Under the pieces are notes generated by a model. That model did no database searches. It saw only the letters and a list, made by a program, of their open reading frames with translations, and was not told where the DNA came from. The position numbers and the translations under genes were made by a program. DNA of 64,000 bases from Nesterenkonia alkaliphila (lineage in GTDB: Bacteria; Actinomycetota; Actinomycetes; Actinomycetales; Micrococcaceae): positions 1-64,000 of the forward strand of contig NZ_WRPM01000046.1 of NCBI RefSeq assembly GCF_009758175.1, in the 5' to 3' direction. Within the stretch, counting starts at the first letter, position 1. Each line of letters begins with the position of its first letter. Below, piece after piece: positions 5,352 through 57,719 of the stretch.

Positions 5352-6137
5352 TCAGGCGCGCCAGGTGGCCAGACGGCCGCACATTCCGTAGAGGCGTGGG
5401 GAGCTGTCGCTGCCGGCTTGGGGTGTGCCGCGCAGCACGGTCGCCTGGCCCAGGTGGGAGCCGTCCCCGGCTGCCAGCGCGGCCAGCTGCTCGGCGGTGC
5501 GCTGGGTCTCAGCGGCCACATTGGCCTCGAAGATCTGCTGCCAGCGCTGGGTCTTGGGCCGCACTAGGTTCACCGCATACTGGTAGAACCGGCCCATCGC
5601 CGCCTCCACCCCTTCGGTTTCGATAGCAGCCAGCAGCTGCTCATAGCCTTCCAGTGCCAGGTCGCGACGGGTACGGGCGGCCTCCGCTTTGTCGGCGTCC
5701 GTTGGCAAAGCCACCGCTGCCGCGTACTTCTCAGGGTCGGCCACAATCTCTTCGGGGAAGGTCAGCACCGCGTCACCGGCCTCGGGCAGCCCGGCATTGG
5801 ACATCACCACGGCCATCTCCAACCCGCCGTGGTTGACCAGCCGGTGCACGGTCCCAGGGGTGAACCACAGCAGGGAGCCAGGCTCCAGTGCATCCTGGGC
5901 GGGCCCCGCCGCACTGATGGTGTGCACCTCGCCGCGGCCGGCAGTGATCACATAGGCCTCGGTGGACAGGGTGTGCAGATGCGGGGAGCCGCCATGCAGC
6001 CCGTCCGGGGTGTCCCAGTCGTAGACGCAGAGGTGGGAGAGGCTGGTGCCGCCGGGGAAGTGCGGCAGGGCGCGGTCCACCACGGGGCCTGCTCCGGAGG
6101 GAACCTGGCTGCCGGGGGTCTCTGCAGGGCTAGACAT
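5352..6137 (-). CDS. Cupin-domain protein
   Basis: 261 aa. The N-terminal half is a cupin barrel with the metal-type motif HLHTLSTEAYVITAGRGEVH and a second motif WFTPGTVHRLVNHG. The C-terminal half is helical and includes a tract similar to those in sugar-associated cupins. It is last in a three-gene operon: its ATG overlaps the stop of the PmoA-like gene by one base (TGATG). A role in binding or isomerising a sugar acid is inferred from the neighbours. The precise reaction is unknown. Confidence 0.8.
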   Translation of the reverse strand: MSSPAETPGSQVPSGAGPVVDRALPHFPGGTSLSHLCVYDWDTPDGLHGGSPHLHTLSTEAYVITAGRGEVHTISAAGPAQDALEPGSLLWFTPGTVHRLVNHGGLEMAVVMSNAGLPEAGDAVLTFPEEIVADPEKYAAAVALPTDADKAEAARTRRDLALEGYEQLLAAIETEGVEAAMGRFYQYAVNLVRPKTQRWQQIFEANVAAETQRTAEQLAALAAGDGSHLGQATVLRGTPQAGSDSSPRLYGMCGRLATWRA

Positions 6138-7159
6138 CAGAGCGCGTACTCCTGAGCAATGGCGGTCAGCTCATCGCCCTCGAGCAGTTGGTCGATGAAC
6201 ACAAAGCGGTGGTTGAGTTTCAGAGTACCGTCGGCGGGCAGGTGGATCTCCTGGTCGAAGGCCGGTGAGGGGCTGGCCACCGCGAAGATCCCGGTGCGGG
6301 TGAACCATTTGACCGGGGGCACCGCAGTGTCCTCAGAGGTTGAGCTGCCCGAGTAGACCAGCACCGTGCCGCCGCCGTTGAAGTCATCGTGCTCAGAGCT
6401 GAAGGCCACCCATTCGGCCTCAGTGCCCATGATGGTCGAATCCTCCTCCATCCCGGTGGAGGAGACGACCTTGCAGCCGGTCCAGGACCGCGGCCCGCGC
6501 CAGAACCAGCCGGTGTAGCCGGCTTTCTCCCGGCCAGCGGTGGTGGGGCTGCCCAAATCTATGGTGGAGCCGCGCACGTTGGTGATCTCCGTGACGAGGT
6601 CCACCGCCCAGATACCGCGGCCCTCAGCAAAGCGGTTCAGGTCCAGTGAGTGGAGGCGCTGGACCCGGTGCTCATCTATCCAATGCTCCCCTGCGGCGGT
6701 GATCCACTGCAGGTCCTCATCGAGGACCACCTCGTCCCCACCGGCTGGTGCGGTGCGGAACCCGGTATGCCGCATAGTGCCCAGGTTGTCCTTCATCACA
6801 TACCATTTGGTCTCCTTGTCGAAGGAGGCCCCGCCCCAAAAATTCTGGTCATCCACATGGGACCAGGTGAACTGCAGCCCGGTGTGCCAGCGGTGGTCCC
6901 AGGGCCGGCGCACCGAGGCCTCAGCTCCGCCGGTGAACCGCAGCGGAAACAGGTAGGGCTTGGGCGCCTCGTCCTGGGGTGAGTCGGGGTCGGTCTCGTA
7001 GCGGGCGATCTCAACGTCCCCGGCCCGCACCGAGACCGCGCCCCCTCGCTGGTGCTGCCCCACCGCCTGGGAAGACTCAGCAGCGGTGCTGGTCCCGGTA
7101 CCAGTGCTCACCCGGCCCAGTCGGGCGTCGTCGTAATTTTCAACCTCAAACTGGTTCAT
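6137..7159 (-). CDS. PmoA-like (DUF6807) family protein
   Basis: 340 aa with the family pattern KPYLFPLRFTGGAEASVRRP, WDHRWHTGLQFTWSHVDDQNFW and later GYTGWFWRGPRSWTG. The family name refers to methane oxygenase similarity in annotation only; these proteins sit with sugar oxidoreductases and glycosidases in many actinobacteria and are probably carbohydrate-related. It is sandwiched between the Gfo/Idh oxidoreductase and the cupin with one-base start/stop overlaps on both sides, so the three are translationally coupled. No catalytic residue can be assigned with confidence. Confidence 0.8.
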   Translation of the reverse strand: MNQFEVENYDDARLGRVSTGTGTSTAAESSQAVGQHQRGGAVSVRAGDVEIARYETDPDSPQDEAPKPYLFPLRFTGGAEASVRRPWDHRWHTGLQFTWSHVDDQNFWGGASFDKETKWYVMKDNLGTMRHTGFRTAPAGGDEVVLDEDLQWITAAGEHWIDEHRVQRLHSLDLNRFAEGRGIWAVDLVTEITNVRGSTIDLGSPTTAGREKAGYTGWFWRGPRSWTGCKVVSSTGMEEDSTIMGTEAEWVAFSSEHDDFNGGGTVLVYSGSSTSEDTAVPPVKWFTRTGIFAVASPSPAFDQEIHLPADGTLKLNHRFVFIDQLLEGDELTAIAQEYAL

Positions 7160-8262
7160 CAGCCCTCCTGCGGCTTCTGGTAGATGTAGTTCGCATCATG
7201 CATGCCGGTGTAGTAGATGCCGTCCTTGACCAAGTCCTCGCGACGGACCCGCTGGCCGGTCTCAGCCGACTGGTAGAGAGCGGCGATGAACTCCAAGGTG
7301 CGGCGCCCGTCGTGACCTGAGGCGCGCGGGCGGGTGCCTTCGGCCATGGCGTCGAGCAGCTCTGCCAGCTGCTGCCGGTGTGAGGAGGGGATGTTCTCCT
7401 GCGGGGCCCAGGACTGCACGGTCTCGGTGTCCTCCGCCTTATGCGGTGCCGGGGTCCACCGCCAGGAGGAGTTGTCATAGCCGTAGAGGTGCTCCACCTC
7501 CACTGTGGCGTCCTGGAAGTCGAAGCGCAGGTAGGAGGTCTCCCGGGGCGAGAGCACCGAGTTCACGATGGAGGCGATGGCTCCGGACTCCAACTTCACG
7601 ATGGCGAAGCTGACATCCTCGGTCTCGATATCGCGGTCCAGGGTGTCTGCCACTGCGGTGACCTCGGTCCAGTCGCCGAGCACCTCGAAGAGCAGGTCCA
7701 TCTGGTGGATGCCGTGACCCATCGCCGGGCCACCCCCCTCAGTGGCCCAGAGTCCGCGCCAGGGCACGTCATAGTAGGCGTGCGGGCGGTACCAGAGGGT
7801 GTTGCACAGAGCGACCATCGGCCGCCCCAGGGTGCCCTGCGCCACCTGCTGCTTCAGGGTGGCTGCCCCGGAGCCGAACCGGTGCTGAAACACGTAGCTG
7901 GCGTAGGGGCCGCCTTCACGCTCCTGGGCCTCCACCTCGTCATAGTCAGAAAGGGTGAGCATGGGGGGCTTCTCGCACCAGACCCAGGCCCCGGCCCGCA
8001 GGCCTTTGAGCACCGCCTCCTTATGCGCCGAGGGAGGGGTGCAGACGATCAGCAGATCGGGTTTCTCCGCCTCCAGCAGGGCGTCCACATCTGTGTAGCG
8101 CCCGGGAATGTCCCACTCCTGGGCTACCTGAGCGACCCGGTCGGCATCGAGATCGGCAATGGCTGCCACCTCGACCCGATCCTGGTGGGCACGCAGGGTG
8201 GGCAGATGGGCGATAGTGGCGATGCCGCCGGCACCGATGAGGCCGACTTTGACCTTGGACAT
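7159..8262 (-). CDS. Gfo/Idh/MocA-family oxidoreductase
   Basis: 367-aa NAD(P)-dependent sugar or cyclitol dehydrogenase-type enzyme. The N-terminal Rossmann fold is VGLIGAGGIATIAHLPTL, followed by the EKP motif (WCEKPPMLTL) that carries the family's catalytic Lys; His residues lie in the C-terminal substrate domain (GHGIHQMDLLFEVLGD). A good AAGGAG site precedes the ATG. It is the first gene of the operon with the PmoA-like and cupin genes, and it is divergent from lacI. A Crp-type site ends 22 bp upstream of its start, next to a LacI operator, so expression is probably repressed by LacI and linked to cAMP-Crp. Confidence 0.9.
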   Translation of the reverse strand: MSKVKVGLIGAGGIATIAHLPTLRAHQDRVEVAAIADLDADRVAQVAQEWDIPGRYTDVDALLEAEKPDLLIVCTPPSAHKEAVLKGLRAGAWVWCEKPPMLTLSDYDEVEAQEREGGPYASYVFQHRFGSGAATLKQQVAQGTLGRPMVALCNTLWYRPHAYYDVPWRGLWATEGGGPAMGHGIHQMDLLFEVLGDWTEVTAVADTLDRDIETEDVSFAIVKLESGAIASIVNSVLSPRETSYLRFDFQDATVEVEHLYGYDNSSWRWTPAPHKAEDTETVQSWAPQENIPSSHRQQLAELLDAMAEGTRPRASGHDGRRTLEFIAALYQSAETGQRVRREDLVKDGIYYTGMHDANYIYQKPQEG

Positions 8263-8284: not shown

Positions 8285-8300
8285 TGTGATGCTGTTCACA
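8285..8300. promoter_or_regulatory. Crp/GlxR binding site
   Basis: TGTGATGCTGTTCACA is a perfect match to TGTGA-N6-TCACA, the consensus of actinobacterial Crp/GlxR. It lies 7 bp from the LacI operator in the divergent promoter. A matching pair of sites precedes the xylanase gene. Confidence 0.8.
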
Positions 8301-8307
8301 GCCTATT

Positions 8308-8321
8308 GGAAAACGTTTGCC
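8308..8321. promoter_or_regulatory. LacI-family operator
   Basis: GGAAAACGTTTGCC is a near-palindrome with the central CG and AAACGTTT core typical of LacI/CcpA-type operators. It lies between lacI and the Gfo/Idh operon. Its exact reverse complement occurs at 57595-57608 before the xylanase gene. Confidence 0.82.
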
Positions 8322-8493
8322 CAGCGCAACAGCACCACGTAATCGCCCTCATGTCGCCATTCTTCCGGATACGATGACGAACACAGCAAGCTGCCCTGAG
8401 CTCCGCACTACCGAATCAGGGACGACGCCGCCCACCCGACCTCGATACCCCGCCCCGGGCAGCAGCCACCCCGGGAACACCAAGGAGCACGCT

Positions 8494-9516
8494 ATGCCGC
8501 CTCAGCACCAGGTCACCTTAGCCCAGGTCGCCGAGGCTGCCGGAGTCTCCATCGCCACCGCCTCCCGGGCGATCAACGGCAGCACCCGCAAGGTCAGCGA
8601 GGAGATCCGGGTCCGGGTCACCCAAACCGCAGAGGAGCTCGGCTATCTGCCGAATCTCTCGGCGCAGACTGTGGTGAAGGGGGCCTCACCCACAGTGGCG
8701 GTGCTGGTCAGCGATATTGCCGATCCCTACTTCAGCGCAATCAGCTCCGGCATCATGGCCGCGGCGCGGCAGGCCGGGCTGATGGTCACTATGGCCACCT
8801 CCGAACGCCGCTCGGCTGACGAGCGGGATATGATCCGCACTTTCCGCTCACAACGGCCGCGGGCGATCGTGGTGGTCGGATCCCGCTGGGACCAGGACCC
8901 TCAGGCTGCGGCCATCGAGGAGCAGCTCGCCGCCTACCAACAGGCCGGTGGGCGGGTGGTCCTGGTCTCCCAGGGCCCCTCCCCCTTCGACCTGGTGGAG
9001 ATCCAGAACTTTGAGGGCGCCAAGGCCCTGGCCCACGCTCTGGTCGACCAGGGCGGCCAGCGCTTCGGGGTCGCAGTGGGCTACCGCCGGCTGCGTACCA
9101 ACGCGGACCGGCTGGCCGGTTTTACCCAGGGATTGGCTGAGCGCTCTATCACCCTGAAGGAGGAGGCTGTGGCGGAGGCAGCCTTCACCCGCGACGGCGG
9201 CTACGCAGCTATGCGCCAGCTCCTGGAGCGGGGCGTGGAGCTGGACACGGTCTTCGCGGCCAGTGATCTGATGGCATTCGGCGCGGCCACCGCCATGCGT
9301 GAGGCCGGGGTGCAGCCGGGTGCCCAGATCGGGCTGGCCGGCTTCGACAACATTGCGCTCACCGAGGATGTCACCCCCGCGCTGACCACTGTGGACGCCC
9401 CGCTGGGAGAGATCGGCAGGCGCGCCATGGACCTGGCACTCTCCGAAGGCACGGAGCCGCGCACTGTGGAGGTTCCCACCTCAGTGATTCTGCGCGCCTC
9501 CACTCCGCGCCGCTGA
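8494..9516 (+). CDS. LacI-family transcriptional regulator
   Basis: 340-aa repressor. The N-terminal helix-turn-helix is VTLAQVAEAAGVSIATASRAING, followed by the hinge region and a periplasmic-binding-protein-like effector domain (VAVLVSDIADPYFSAISSGI to GLAGFDNIALTEDVTPALTTVD). The start at 8494 has AAGGAG upstream and places the helix-turn-helix at the very N-terminus; an in-frame extension to 8317 would overlap the operator. It most likely binds GGAAAACGTTTGCC in its own divergent promoter and at the xylanase. The effector is probably a hemicellulose-derived sugar (inference). Confidence 0.93.
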   Translation: MPPQHQVTLAQVAEAAGVSIATASRAINGSTRKVSEEIRVRVTQTAEELGYLPNLSAQTVVKGASPTVAVLVSDIADPYFSAISSGIMAAARQAGLMVTMATSERRSADERDMIRTFRSQRPRAIVVVGSRWDQDPQAAAIEEQLAAYQQAGGRVVLVSQGPSPFDLVEIQNFEGAKALAHALVDQGGQRFGVAVGYRRLRTNADRLAGFTQGLAERSITLKEEAVAEAAFTRDGGYAAMRQLLERGVELDTVFAASDLMAFGAATAMREAGVQPGAQIGLAGFDNIALTEDVTPALTTVDAPLGEIGRRAMDLALSEGTEPRTVEVPTSVILRASTPRR

Positions 9517-40560: not shown

Positions 40561-40646
40561 GAGACCATACGTTAGCCTGACAGCGCTACAACCTGGTAAC
40601 TTCTATGCCATAATGATCAACTTCACACCCCAGGAATGGAACGGTT

Positions 40647-41324
40647 ATGGATCTTGAAGTGCTGCGCCGCGCTCCTCTGTTCGCCACGCTCGACGACGAA
40701 GTCTTCGCGGCACTGACCAATGAGCTCACCGAGGTGGAGCTCTCCCGCGGCGCCTCAGTCTTCCACGAGGGAGACCAGGGCGATCAGCTCTACTTCATCG
40801 TCTCCGGCAAGATCAAGCTGGGCCGCTCCACCCAAGACGGCCGCGAGAACCTGCTGGCCGTGCTCGGCCCGGGTGAGATCTTCGGCGAGATGGCACTGTT
40901 CAACCCGGCCCCGCGCACCGCCACGGCCACCGCAGTCTCCGAGACCCGGCTGGCCGGGCTGAAGCATGACAGCCTCAAGGAGATCATCAACTCCAACCCG
41001 GAGATCTCAGTGCAGCTGCTGCAGGCCCTGGCCAAGCGCCTGACCCGCACCAATGAGTCCCTGGCCGACCTGGTGTTCTCCGATGTGCCTGGCCGTGTGG
41101 CCAAGGCCCTGCTGGACCTGGCCGACCGCTTCGGCCGGCCCGCACCGGACGGCATCCTGGTGGCCCACGAGCTCACCCAGGAGGAGCTGGCCCAGCTGGT
41201 GGGCGCCTCCCGCGAAACGGTCAACAAGGCTCTGGCGGAGTTTGTTCAGCGCGGCTGGCTGCGGCTTGAAGCACGCGCCGTGGTCATCCTGGATATCCAG
41301 CGCATCAAACAGCGCTCCCGCTAG
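40647..41324 (+). CDS. crp: Crp/Fnr-family cAMP-type regulator (Crp/GlxR)
   Basis: 225 aa. The cyclic-nucleotide domain has the phosphate-binding cassette FGEMALFNPAPRTATATA with Arg; the C-terminal winged helix is LTQEELAQLVGASRETVNKAL. Position beside marP and nth matches mycobacterial crp. It should bind TGTGA-N6-TCACA, which occurs perfectly at 8285 and 57632 in this window. Confidence 0.93.
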   Translation: MDLEVLRRAPLFATLDDEVFAALTNELTEVELSRGASVFHEGDQGDQLYFIVSGKIKLGRSTQDGRENLLAVLGPGEIFGEMALFNPAPRTATATAVSETRLAGLKHDSLKEIINSNPEISVQLLQALAKRLTRTNESLADLVFSDVPGRVAKALLDLADRFGRPAPDGILVAHELTQEELAQLVGASRETVNKALAEFVQRGWLRLEARAVVILDIQRIKQRSR

Positions 41325-55079: not shown

Positions 55080-57533
55080 TCAGCGCTGGGCTGCCCGGCG
55101 GCGGGCGATCAGCAGGGCTGATCCGCCCAGGCCCAGCAGCGCCAGTGCAGCCAGCAGGAGGCCTCCCACTGTGGCGCCGGTTCTTGCCAAGCCTGCGCCC
55201 TCATCCCCTGCTGGGACAATGGTGAGCTCCGTCCAGCCGATGAGCTCTCCGGCGGTGGTGTAGACCGCCAGGCGGTGTTCACCCTCGCTGTCCTCGGGCA
55301 GCGTGACCGTGATGGATCCCTCAGCATCAGCGGCAGACTCGCCCAGGTCCTCCGGTTCGGAGAACAGCCAGGAGCGCAGGGTCTGCCCGGAAGCCTCAGA
55401 GCCAGCTGAGACCTGGATCTCCTGCCCAGCAACAGCCGGGTCAGTGAGGATCTCCACTGCTCCGCGGTTCTGGTCGGTGAGCTCTTCGGCGGACGGCGGC
55501 CAGACGCTCTCCGGATCAGCGGTCTCGGTGGGCTCAGGGGACTCAGTGGGGTCCGGGGACTCGGCCGGGCCGCTGGGCTCCTCGCTGGGGTCCGGGGATG
55601 CGGTGGGGTCAGGCTCCTCGCTGGGCTCCGGCGATGCGGTCGGCTCCGTCGGCGTAGCCGTGGGAGTGGGCTCAGTCGGCTCCTCGGTGGGGTCCGGGGA
55701 CTCGCTCGGGTCTTCCGGATCCGCCGGGTCTGTGGCCTGTGGCCAGCTCACCAGCAGCTCGCTCCCACCGTCCTCCTCCAGTTTCTCCACACGGAGGGAA
55801 TTGATGGTGTAGGCGCTGCCACCCCCACCTCCGCGGATGGCGATATTGCCGATCAGCCCGTCGGCGGGCTGGTCGCCGTCCAGGGTCACCTCTGTGACCA
55901 GGTCATAGGTGCCCATATTCACCATCCCACTGTTGAAGTAGGCGGGAATGTGTGTGGCGACCTCATCTGCCCCGTACTGGTAGTCATTGACCACTGCGCC
56001 GTCCGCTGAGGTGTAGCCGCCGTTGGATTCGTCACGGACCCAGCGCACCCTCAGCGAGGTAGTGCCTGAGGGGGTGTAGTTGACGGTCAGCCGGTAAGTA
56101 GCCCCCGGCTCGGGCTCAAAGGCCACCTCACCGTCCTCACCGGCAGTTGACCAGGGCCATTGCGAGGCGTCGTTTCCGAGGATGATGTTGGCCCCGGTAT
56201 AACCGTCGCCCCGCTCAGCGTGGTAGACGTGCACCCCCGGGACTGGCTCTTGGTCATCATCCTGGTGCTCCGGCTCCATCCAGTCATGGGTGGCGAGGAA
56301 CTCCTCCGGGTACAGGATGCCCAGCAGCGCCTTCTTCGCCCGGCCCTCATAGTCATAGGGCATGGCGTATTCGCCGGCCTTCCAGCCCTCGGTCACATCG
56401 CGGACTCCGGCGAGCTTGACCGTGGTGATGACCCGGGGGTTGCCGGTGGTGTTGGCGGGTCCGGCCGCGTAGTCGCGGAAGACCCTGAACAGCTCGGCAT
56501 ACTGCATCCCCTGATTGTTCTCCTTCTCCTCGGTCAGCTCCCCTGGAGGCACTCCCACATCCATCTCGGTGATGTGGATCTCCACGCCGGGAAGGGTGGC
56601 GAAGAGCTGGATATTGCCCTCGACATCACTGATGTCTGTGTTCAACCCGTAGTGGCCCTGCATGCCGATCACTTCGATCAACTGCTTGCCGTCAGGCCGA
56701 ACACCTTCGTTGCGCTCGTTGATCTCCTTGACCATCTCGTACACCACTCGAGCCTTATCCGGGTTGTTCAGGCCGAAGTCGTTGTAGGTCAGCTTGACGT
56801 CCCACCCGTTCTCATCGACCACTTCGGCCGCCTCCAGGAATGCCATCTCCACCCAGTCGGAGCCCAGGGCCGGATACCAGCCTTGCCCCGTTGACAGCGA
56901 GGCTCGCCAGTCAGAGGGATCGGCGTGCTCCACGGCTTCGTTGACCACATCGATGGCTTCCAGGCGGTCGCCGAAATGTCCCAACACTCCCTGGATGTGC
57001 TGACGTAGGTTCTCCTGGGCCACCTCCGGGTCATACTCCCCCGGCTGGTCATAGCGGGCGGGCGGGGCGTCCCACATCCAGGACGGGGTCTGGGAGTGCC
57101 AGGCCAGTGCGTGGCCGAAGAAGAGCAGGTCTGGGTTGTGCGCGGCATGCTCGGCCATGGCGGCCTCTGCGGGGTCGAACGTGAACTGCCCCTTCTCCGG
57201 CTGAGTGCTCTCAGGCTTCATCTCGTTGCCCGGCGTGTAGGAGCCGTAGTTGTAGATCAAGGCGTCCATATCGTTGCCGCGCCCGAAGATGCCTACGTGG
57301 AAGTAGTCCTGGTAGACCTCCTGCATCGCCGGATAATGGTCATAGGTCTGGCCGGTGGGCGGCAGCTCCGCTGTTGGAGCCGCATGTGCCGGGAGATCTG
57401 CAGAACCCACCAGGGAGGCTCCTACCAGCAGTCCTGCTACCGCCATTGCCTGGGCAGGGCGGAAGCGTCGGCGAACACCTCCTCCGGGCTTCTCTCTCCT
57501 GGCGTTCTTCCCATGTGATCGTTGCGTAGACAT
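55080..57533 (-). CDS. Cell-wall-anchored GH10 endo-1,4-beta-xylanase
   Basis: 817 aa. A long twin-basic signal peptide (RRRFRPAQAMAVAGLLVGASLVG to PAHA) is followed by a GH10 barrel with acid-base Glu199 (DVVNEAVE) and nucleophile Glu323 (HITEMDV). Next comes a beta-sandwich, probably a carbohydrate-binding module (residues about 435-585), then a Pro/Glu/Thr/Ser linker of some 85 residues, an Ig-like domain and the sorting signal LARTG (782-786), a hydrophobic helix and RRRAAQR. LAXTG suits the class E sortases of actinobacteria. It cuts xylan at the cell surface. A LacI operator and a perfect Crp site lie upstream. Confidence 0.94.
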   Translation of the reverse strand: MSTQRSHGKNARREKPGGGVRRRFRPAQAMAVAGLLVGASLVGSADLPAHAAPTAELPPTGQTYDHYPAMQEVYQDYFHVGIFGRGNDMDALIYNYGSYTPGNEMKPESTQPEKGQFTFDPAEAAMAEHAAHNPDLLFFGHALAWHSQTPSWMWDAPPARYDQPGEYDPEVAQENLRQHIQGVLGHFGDRLEAIDVVNEAVEHADPSDWRASLSTGQGWYPALGSDWVEMAFLEAAEVVDENGWDVKLTYNDFGLNNPDKARVVYEMVKEINERNEGVRPDGKQLIEVIGMQGHYGLNTDISDVEGNIQLFATLPGVEIHITEMDVGVPPGELTEEKENNQGMQYAELFRVFRDYAAGPANTTGNPRVITTVKLAGVRDVTEGWKAGEYAMPYDYEGRAKKALLGILYPEEFLATHDWMEPEHQDDDQEPVPGVHVYHAERGDGYTGANIILGNDASQWPWSTAGEDGEVAFEPEPGATYRLTVNYTPSGTTSLRVRWVRDESNGGYTSADGAVVNDYQYGADEVATHIPAYFNSGMVNMGTYDLVTEVTLDGDQPADGLIGNIAIRGGGGGSAYTINSLRVEKLEEDGGSELLVSWPQATDPADPEDPSESPDPTEEPTEPTPTATPTEPTASPEPSEEPDPTASPDPSEEPSGPAESPDPTESPEPTETADPESVWPPSAEELTDQNRGAVEILTDPAVAGQEIQVSAGSEASGQTLRSWLFSEPEDLGESAADAEGSITVTLPEDSEGEHRLAVYTTAGELIGWTELTIVPAGDEGAGLARTGATVGGLLLAALALLGLGGSALLIARRRAAQR

Positions 57534-57594: not shown

Positions 57595-57608
57595 GGCAAA
57601 CGTTTTCC
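57595..57608. promoter_or_regulatory. LacI-family operator before the xylanase
   Basis: GGCAAACGTTTTCC is the exact reverse complement of the site at 8308-8321. It lies 62 bp upstream of the xylanase start codon, a suitable place for repression. Confidence 0.82.
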
Positions 57609-57631
57609 GCATGCCTGAGCATCGATCCTAT

Positions 57632-57647
57632 TGTGATGTGCTTCACA
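57632..57647. promoter_or_regulatory. Crp/GlxR binding site before the xylanase
   Basis: TGTGATGTGCTTCACA matches TGTGA-N6-TCACA perfectly. It lies about 100 bp upstream of the xylanase start and 23 bp beyond the LacI operator, the order expected for an activator upstream of a repressor site. Confidence 0.8.
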
Positions 57648-57719
57648 TGGCAACCTCTGAGTTGTCCCCGAACGTGCAGGCAGCCGGAGGTTAGGCCCCG
57701 ATCGGCATAGGCTGGAGGT

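Follow-up and report, generated by a model that had tools for sequence, protein, structure and literature searches.

Predicted LacI and GlxR sites exchange positions at the core promoters of putative xylan-utilization genes in Nesterenkonia

The lac promoter of E. coli, with its LacI and CRP, is the familiar case of a local repressor and a Crp protein working at one promoter; Crp sites that activate usually lie near -61.5 or -41.5. The closest described relative in terms of predicted targets is Streptomyces BxlR, a LacI-type regulator that, in the excerpted text of PMC12772271, is thought to control GH10 and GH11 xylanases together with an ABC transporter, the bxl cluster combining xylobiose uptake by this transporter with a beta-xylosidase. 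The Crp-type protein of C. glutamicum, GlxR, has TGTGA-N6-TCACA as its consensus site and, at ldhA, improving the site raised promoter activity (both from an excerpt of PMC7999487). GlxR activates or represses according to where its site lies, a site downstream of the transcription start indicating repression, as has been inferred on that ground for gabT (PMC7652997, in part). For C. glutamicum, growth on glucose was reported to raise cAMP ten-fold over growth on acetate (from a study to which the excerpt of PMC2230225 refers). A literature text search yielded no paper with GlxR regulation of xylanases in its title, and we know of no description of a spacer position that alternates between GlxR and a LacI protein.

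The window analysed here is the whole 64,000-nucleotide stretch, C46:1-64000, of the source genome (G000; 3,318,774 bases, 3.32 Mb, in 103 contigs). Its relevant features are the following:

5352-6137, minus strand: cupin protein (PF07883 and PF00190, both barely above cut-offs)
6137-7159, minus strand: DUF6807 protein (PF14100, E 3.7e-61)
7159-8262, minus strand: gfo1, Gfo/Idh/MocA oxidoreductase (PF01408, PF22725, PF02894)
8285-8300, no strand: Crp/GlxR-type site TGTGATGCTGTTCACA, with one base in common with the predicted gfo1 -10 and extending into the start region
8300-8305, minus strand: predicted -10 of gfo1, TAGGCT (alignment and promoter-frame scan)
8308-8321, no strand: predicted LacI operator 1, GGAAAACGTTTGCC, palindrome GGNAARCGYTTNCC, in the predicted -35/-10 spacer of gfo1
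8324-8329, minus strand: predicted -35 of gfo1, TTGCGC; TTGCGC-N18-TAGGCT frames the operator (chance of frame 0.0011)
8494-9516, plus strand: LacI-family regulator, 340 aa (Pfam LacI and Peripla_BP; nearest solved chain 5ysz, LacI family)
40647-41324, plus strand: GlxR/Crp-type protein, 225 aa (cNMP_binding and HTH_Crp_2), candidate reader of the TGTGA-N6-TCACA sites
55080-57533, minus strand: GH10 endo-xylanase-type protein (PF00331, E 6.4e-55)
57595-57608, no strand: predicted LacI operator 2, starting 16 nt downstream of the predicted GH10 -10
57625-57630, minus strand: predicted -10 of the GH10 gene, TAGGAT (promoter-frame scan)
57632-57647, no strand: Crp/GlxR-type site TGTGATGTGCTTCACA, within the 17 bp that separate the predicted -35 and -10 of the GH10 gene
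57648-57653, minus strand: predicted -35 of the GH10 gene, TTGCCA (promoter-frame scan)

The LacI protein has an N-terminal HTH (PF00356, E 2.5e-15) and a periplasmic-binding-like core (PF13377, E 2.6e-22), and the GH10 protein carries a Pro/Thr-rich linker and, as read from its sequence, an LARTG-type wall anchor. None of eight proteins scanned reached an NCBIfam family cut-off.

As in lac, a LacI-type operator and a Crp site lie close together at one promoter; unlike lac, the Crp sites are in the predicted spacer or over and downstream of the -10, and there are four promoters with two alternating layouts. BxlR is likewise a LacI-family regulator, with a GH10 xylanase, an oligosaccharide-type ABC operon and a xylosidase-type gene among the predicted targets (excerpt of PMC12772271), a likeness that is functional and drawn from predicted targets. 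The Nesterenkonia set differs in adding two Gfo/Idh operons (one with DUF6807 and a cupin, the other with DUF993 and a TIM barrel) and in having a GlxR-type site in or adjoining each core promoter. The C. glutamicum GlxR regulon is matched in that TGTGA-N6-TCACA stands beside the site of a local regulator and that the genome encodes a GlxR-type protein and a class III adenylate cyclase. A further difference from BxlR is that the spacer is taken by the predicted LacI site at some promoters and by the GlxR site at others.

We think it probable, from the sequence comparisons that follow, that LacI 8494-9516 is a dedicated repressor responding to xylan or xylo-oligosaccharides at four promoters, that GlxR acts at each of these, and that both hinder RNA polymerase. 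The LacI protein would bind GGNAARCGYTTNCC at the promoters of gfo1-DUF6807-cupin, GH10, gfo2-DUF993-TIM barrel and the ABC-operon gene, and a GlxR/Crp protein, most likely that encoded at 40647-41324, would bind a TGTGA-N6-TCACA-type site in each. At the gfo promoters LacI would occupy the -35/-10 spacer and GlxR the DNA from the last base of the -10; at the GH10 and ABC promoters of G000 GlxR would take the spacer and LacI the DNA downstream of the -10. Transcription would follow when an inducer derived from xylan takes LacI off its operator and GlxR has also come off the DNA.

The initial annotation had noticed that the 14-mer GGAAAACGTTTGCC at 8308-8321 (plus strand) recurs exactly, as its reverse complement, at 57595-57608 (minus strand), with a perfect TGTGA-N6-TCACA site within 23 bp at both places. 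The coordinates are confirmed, the gap between operator and Crp site being 7 bp at the gfo1/lacI locus and 23 bp at the GH10 locus. Numerous copies elsewhere would have spoken against a specific operator, and they did not turn up: the exact 14-mer occurs in G000 only at these two positions, and allowing one mismatch adds a single further place, C46:85178. (At up to two mismatches there are 12 rows, at 9 places, as against 6 rows for the reversed-pattern control; one two-mismatch match, C46:83477, is inside a called frame, and further ones are on C25, C30, C44 and C78.) The palindrome GGNAARCGYTTNCC, with its central CG, is found at four places in G000, all on contig C46 (8308, 57595, 85178 and 88836, the latter two beyond the window), and its reversed control at none. 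A wider regulon in G000 is rejected on that count. The perfect TGTGA-N6-TCACA palindrome has six places in G000 (control 0), two of them in the window loci, and pairs of operator and perfect Crp site no more than 60 bp apart number two, with 0.0009 expected (Poisson P ~4e-7). The two operators outside the window each have a one-mismatch Crp site, so that a TGTGA-N6-TCACA-type site is present at all four G000 promoters. Taken by itself at up to two mismatches, the Crp motif is found 15 times in the window, with 20.6 expected by chance.

The genes downstream of these operators bear on what the repressor controls. C46:85178 lies upstream of an operon of gfo2 (Gfo/Idh), DUF993 and an AP_endonuc_2 TIM barrel. 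At C46:88836 the operator is followed by a start codon only 64 bases from the contig end, which cuts the gene; its counterpart in the sister species (G005) opens an ABC transporter operon whose products are two permeases, a binding protein, a 222-aa protein that no Pfam family matches and a GH43 protein. G005 itself has four strict operators, before gfo1/lacI, gfo2, the ABC/GH43 operon and a GH10-CBM protein whose architecture is unlike that of the window GH10 and whose promoter has a perfect Crp site. Targets of the BxlR type are preceded by operators in both genomes, GH10 in G000 and GH10 and ABC/GH43 in G005, the substrate of the transporter being assigned by inference. Operators with the central CG also lie near the repressor's own gene in G000 (8308-8321), G005, G025 and G002. 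The earlier proposal that this LacI is a hemicellulose-utilization repressor is upheld for xylan by its strict operators, which stand at GH10, the two Gfo/Idh operons and the ABC/GH43-type gene. It draws further support from gene order in four of the eight LacI-bearing genomes of the genus (G003, G022, G019 and G018), in which lacI sits between xylA-xylB-type genes and the ABC operon (the domain scan covered G003 of these four, and domain content together with gene neighbourhood suggested the names xylA and xylB). G025 and G002 share the window's arrangement, with lacI and gfo1-DUF6807-cupin divergent; lacI is followed by gfo2 in G025. The xylAB-type genes of G000 itself, on C6, find no support as a target: they have no operator and adjoin a ROK-type regulator.

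In a sample of 30 Nesterenkonia genomes, G000 included, eight hold a LacI at least 61% identical to that of the window. Strict operators occur at 17 places, 13 of them in these eight genomes and four in the other 22, with six places for the reversed-pattern control over all 30; two LacI-bearing genomes, G018 and G019, have a one-mismatch operator only. For every one of the 13 operators in LacI-bearing genomes there is, no more than 58 bp away, a Crp site with one mismatch or none, as against 4 of 152 background windows (each 130 bp long and taken from in front of called genes). This background includes the G025 GH10 promoter with its perfect Crp site and two-mismatch operator; the counts come from related sequences and are not independent events. 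Conservation is concentrated on the sites. In the stretch bounded by the -35 and the far edge of the Crp site, 34 of 44 columns are identical at gfo2 (G000, G005 and G025), compared with 40 of 167 in the flanks, and 34 of 44 at gfo1, compared with 17 of 47 (the same count of three species, G002 being left out). Operator 1 is identical in G005 and falls within the conserved block of the gfo1 promoter alignment, the TTGC of the gfo1 -35 is invariant across four aligned species, and the Crp site TGTGATGCTGTTCACA is identical in G005 and has one mismatch in G025.

The four operator places in genomes without the LacI are a mixed lot. Those of G001 (inside a GH10 frame), G014 and G029, which lack a Crp site even with one mismatch allowed, are treated as chance. 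The fourth, in G006 (C22:202933; L145:1501-1514), has a perfect Crp site at a gfo1-like 23-bp offset and lies upstream of a DUF6807 gene; G006 has no close orthologue of the window LacI, so that other LacI proteins may read the operator. DUF6807 matches are present in 18 of the 30 genomes; at five of ten loci examined there is no close operator/Crp pair. G001, which also lacks a close LacI orthologue, has a GH10 gene (76% identical over residues 13-625) whose predicted spacer contains a Crp site with one mismatch and which has no LacI operator.

LacI proteins of the collected loci with 280 or more aligned residues, 89 in all, were placed in a tree, in which the eight Nesterenkonia LacIs group together with support of 100/100. 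G000 has seven LacI HTH matches, one of which is below the family cut-off and was left out; among the six in the tree LacI 8494-9516 is the only one in its 71-row clade. The nearest row outside the genus is from Amycolatopsis suaedae (98/90), at a locus that also has gfo1, DUF6807 and cupin genes, its placement being unsure because of a long branch. A second Nesterenkonia LacI clade was seen, of nine proteins at 40-44% identity, each beside gfo2 by position (L031-L038, L051); GGAAAGCGCATTCC or its complement is present at eight of these loci and GGAAAGCGTATTCC at one.

Beyond the genus the company that these LacI proteins keep changes. At 56 non-Nesterenkonia loci (some cut by contig ends; L116, a clostridial partial match, and L059, from Nesterenkonia ebinurensis, were left out) gfo2 or DUF993 is present in 29, gfo1 or DUF6807 in five and neither in 22, while GH10 and XylB are found at none and XylA and GH43 at one each. 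In 15 of these loci an operator-like site with no more than one mismatch stands where gfo2 starts, and other such sites adjoin ThuA-domain, sugar-binding and pectate lyase genes. These observations speak for a reading in which the repressor's real signal is not xylan: the clade would ancestrally sense a substrate of Gfo/Idh-DUF993-TIM or of Gfo/Idh-DUF6807-cupin, the xylan genes having been added in Nesterenkonia because that sugar is found together with xylan. We regard this as the strongest competitor of a xylan repressor, though a good deal less likely, given that the targets and neighbours in Nesterenkonia are GH10 genes with two different architectures, an ABC operon that includes GH43, and genes of the xylA-xylB type. 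The initial annotation placed Gfo/Idh, DUF6807 and cupin in the use of xylan or its side-chain sugars; the case for this is guilt by association, and the outside LacI relatives are almost without xylan genes, so that the substrate is not assignable to xylan by association.

Structure comparisons offer some leads. The solved relatives of Gfo1 include DgpA (7xr9) and a glucuronide-3-dehydrogenase (8tdi) among many other Gfo/Idh enzymes, so that an oxidative keto-sugar route is thinkable in a family that is broad. For DUF6807 the sole sequence match among solved chains is insignificant (E 0.31), and an AlphaFold model from a 12-row alignment (mean pLDDT 78) weakly matches mutarotase-like and glycoside-hydrolase beta-sandwiches, with a best E of 2.7e-4 and a query TM of at most 0.37 among the 50 matches listed; because these matches are weak, no function is claimed for it. 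DUF993 has a solved uncharacterised relative, 4dnh, and the best solved matches of the TIM barrel of the gfo2 operon are 3ju2, 3qc0 and 7vpf. Literature searches found no paper for DUF993 and a passing mention for DUF6807, and among the matches listed for Nesterenkonia and LacI no title concerns gene regulation. As a speculation that we would ourselves rate as rather improbable, the two Gfo/Idh operons could form an uncharacterised route that handles xylo-oligosaccharides, or the decorated ends of these, by oxidation and not by hydrolysis, with the LacI clade as its Actinomycetota-wide sensor and with interchangeable LacI and GlxR slots; if that were true, one repressor would tie classical GH10/GH43 hydrolysis to an oxidative route. 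Be that as it may, having DUF6807 and DUF993, two uncharacterised Pfam families, and their Gfo/Idh partners under a predicted xylan repressor makes their substrates testable.

The placement of the sites within the promoters bears on how the two regulators would act. A search for TTGnnn-N16-19-TAnnnT, a pattern picked once the sequences had been inspected, found a single promoter frame, at the sites, in the upstream region of each of 17 genes; these promoters are consensus calls and their start sites are predicted. Flank shuffling of five of the promoters puts the chance of such a frame at 0.0008-0.0013 in each case, and across upstream regions in general, with these promoters counted in, a frame surrounds 10 of 2,380 arbitrary 16-bp stretches. 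In 13 of the 17 the predicted spacer holds either the operator or the Crp site. It is the operator at gfo1 (G000, G005, G025 and G002) and gfo2 (G000, G005 and G025), with the Crp site starting on the last base of the -10, except in G002, where it is further downstream. It is the Crp site at the GH10 genes of G000, G005, G025 and G001 and at the ABC operons of G000 and G005; there the operator lies downstream of the -10, with two mismatches at the G025 GH10 gene and absent at that of G001. In the other four, the ABC promoters of G003, G022, G019 and G018, both sites are downstream of the -10. The initial annotation remarked that order and spacing differ between the two window loci and that the logic might differ too: order and spacing do differ, but the layouts look like versions of one core-promoter scheme. 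A perfect Crp palindrome followed by TAnnnT gives 11 rows (10 places) in 10 of the 30 genomes, the control giving 0, and three of these places are the GH10 promoters of G000, G005 and G025. The remaining places are in G001, G002, G006, G008, G011, G017 and G023 (L180, L181, L184-L188, L190).

By their placement, the Crp and LacI sites look like sites at repressing positions, since a protein bound within the spacer, or across the -10 and the start, is an obstacle to RNA polymerase, and LacI and GlxR most likely both repress. Transferring the logic of the lac operon to these promoters, with LacI repressing and cAMP-GlxR activating, has in its favour that GlxR is able to activate, as at C. glutamicum ldhA (excerpt of PMC7999487), and that the ABC promoters of G003, G022, G019 and G018 have an extra two-mismatch Crp-like site directly upstream of the -35. 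Such activation is nevertheless unlikely here: the strong Crp sites of the window promoters are within the predicted spacer or cover the -10 and DNA downstream of it, away from the usual activating centres around -61.5 and -41.5, which makes co-repression the likelier arrangement. If cAMP is higher on glucose in Nesterenkonia, as reported for C. glutamicum, co-repression would give glucose repression. The proposal of cAMP-Crp co-control accordingly divides: a Crp-type input is supported by the presence of a GlxR-type protein and of one adenylate cyclase of class III, but the Crp sites are off the activating positions. With a local repressor and GlxR exchanging positions, these promoters are a natural set for a clean test of site position against regulatory logic in actinobacterial Crp proteins.

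The candidate reader of the Crp sites, the 40647-41324 protein, matches 3mzh, 3h3u and 3d0s at E ~3e-78 and 4cyd and 4byy at 8.5e-73, entries which we take to be M. tuberculosis and C. glutamicum proteins. G000 has one class III adenylate cyclase domain, on C74, and 12 HTH_Crp_2 matches, of which two are strong: that of the window protein (E 3.2e-17) and that of a protein on C103 (E 2.2e-18). That there are two strong matches is what could commend another Crp/Fnr protein, such as that at C103:22629, as the reader of the sites; it is a very improbable one, since its helix differs (TTPESLSRQLRKL) while the window protein shares the helix segment GASRETVNKALA with its best solved relatives, letter for letter with the top match. 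A two-mismatch Crp site, AATGATCAACTTCACA, lies at 40612-40627, directly before the GlxR-type gene, and autoregulation through it is possible. Chance co-occurrence of common motifs is scarcely credible and is rejected: two-mismatch matches of either motif are indeed near control counts, but the exact and palindromic forms are rare genome-wide, paired with Crp sites, conserved and tied to the same genes.

A further pairing of this kind lies elsewhere in G000. At C102:85683-85720 (L203:5684-5721) a second LacI-type operator and a perfect Crp site, TGTGACACTTCTCACA 8 bp from TGCAAGCGCTTCCA, lie between an alpha-amylase/CBM25 gene and a pullulanase-type gene, at a locus where LacI and GH13-type genes are also present and TGGAAGCGCTTGCA precedes a sugar-binding protein. 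The pairing of operator and Crp site may be a wider design for polysaccharidase promoters in this genome.
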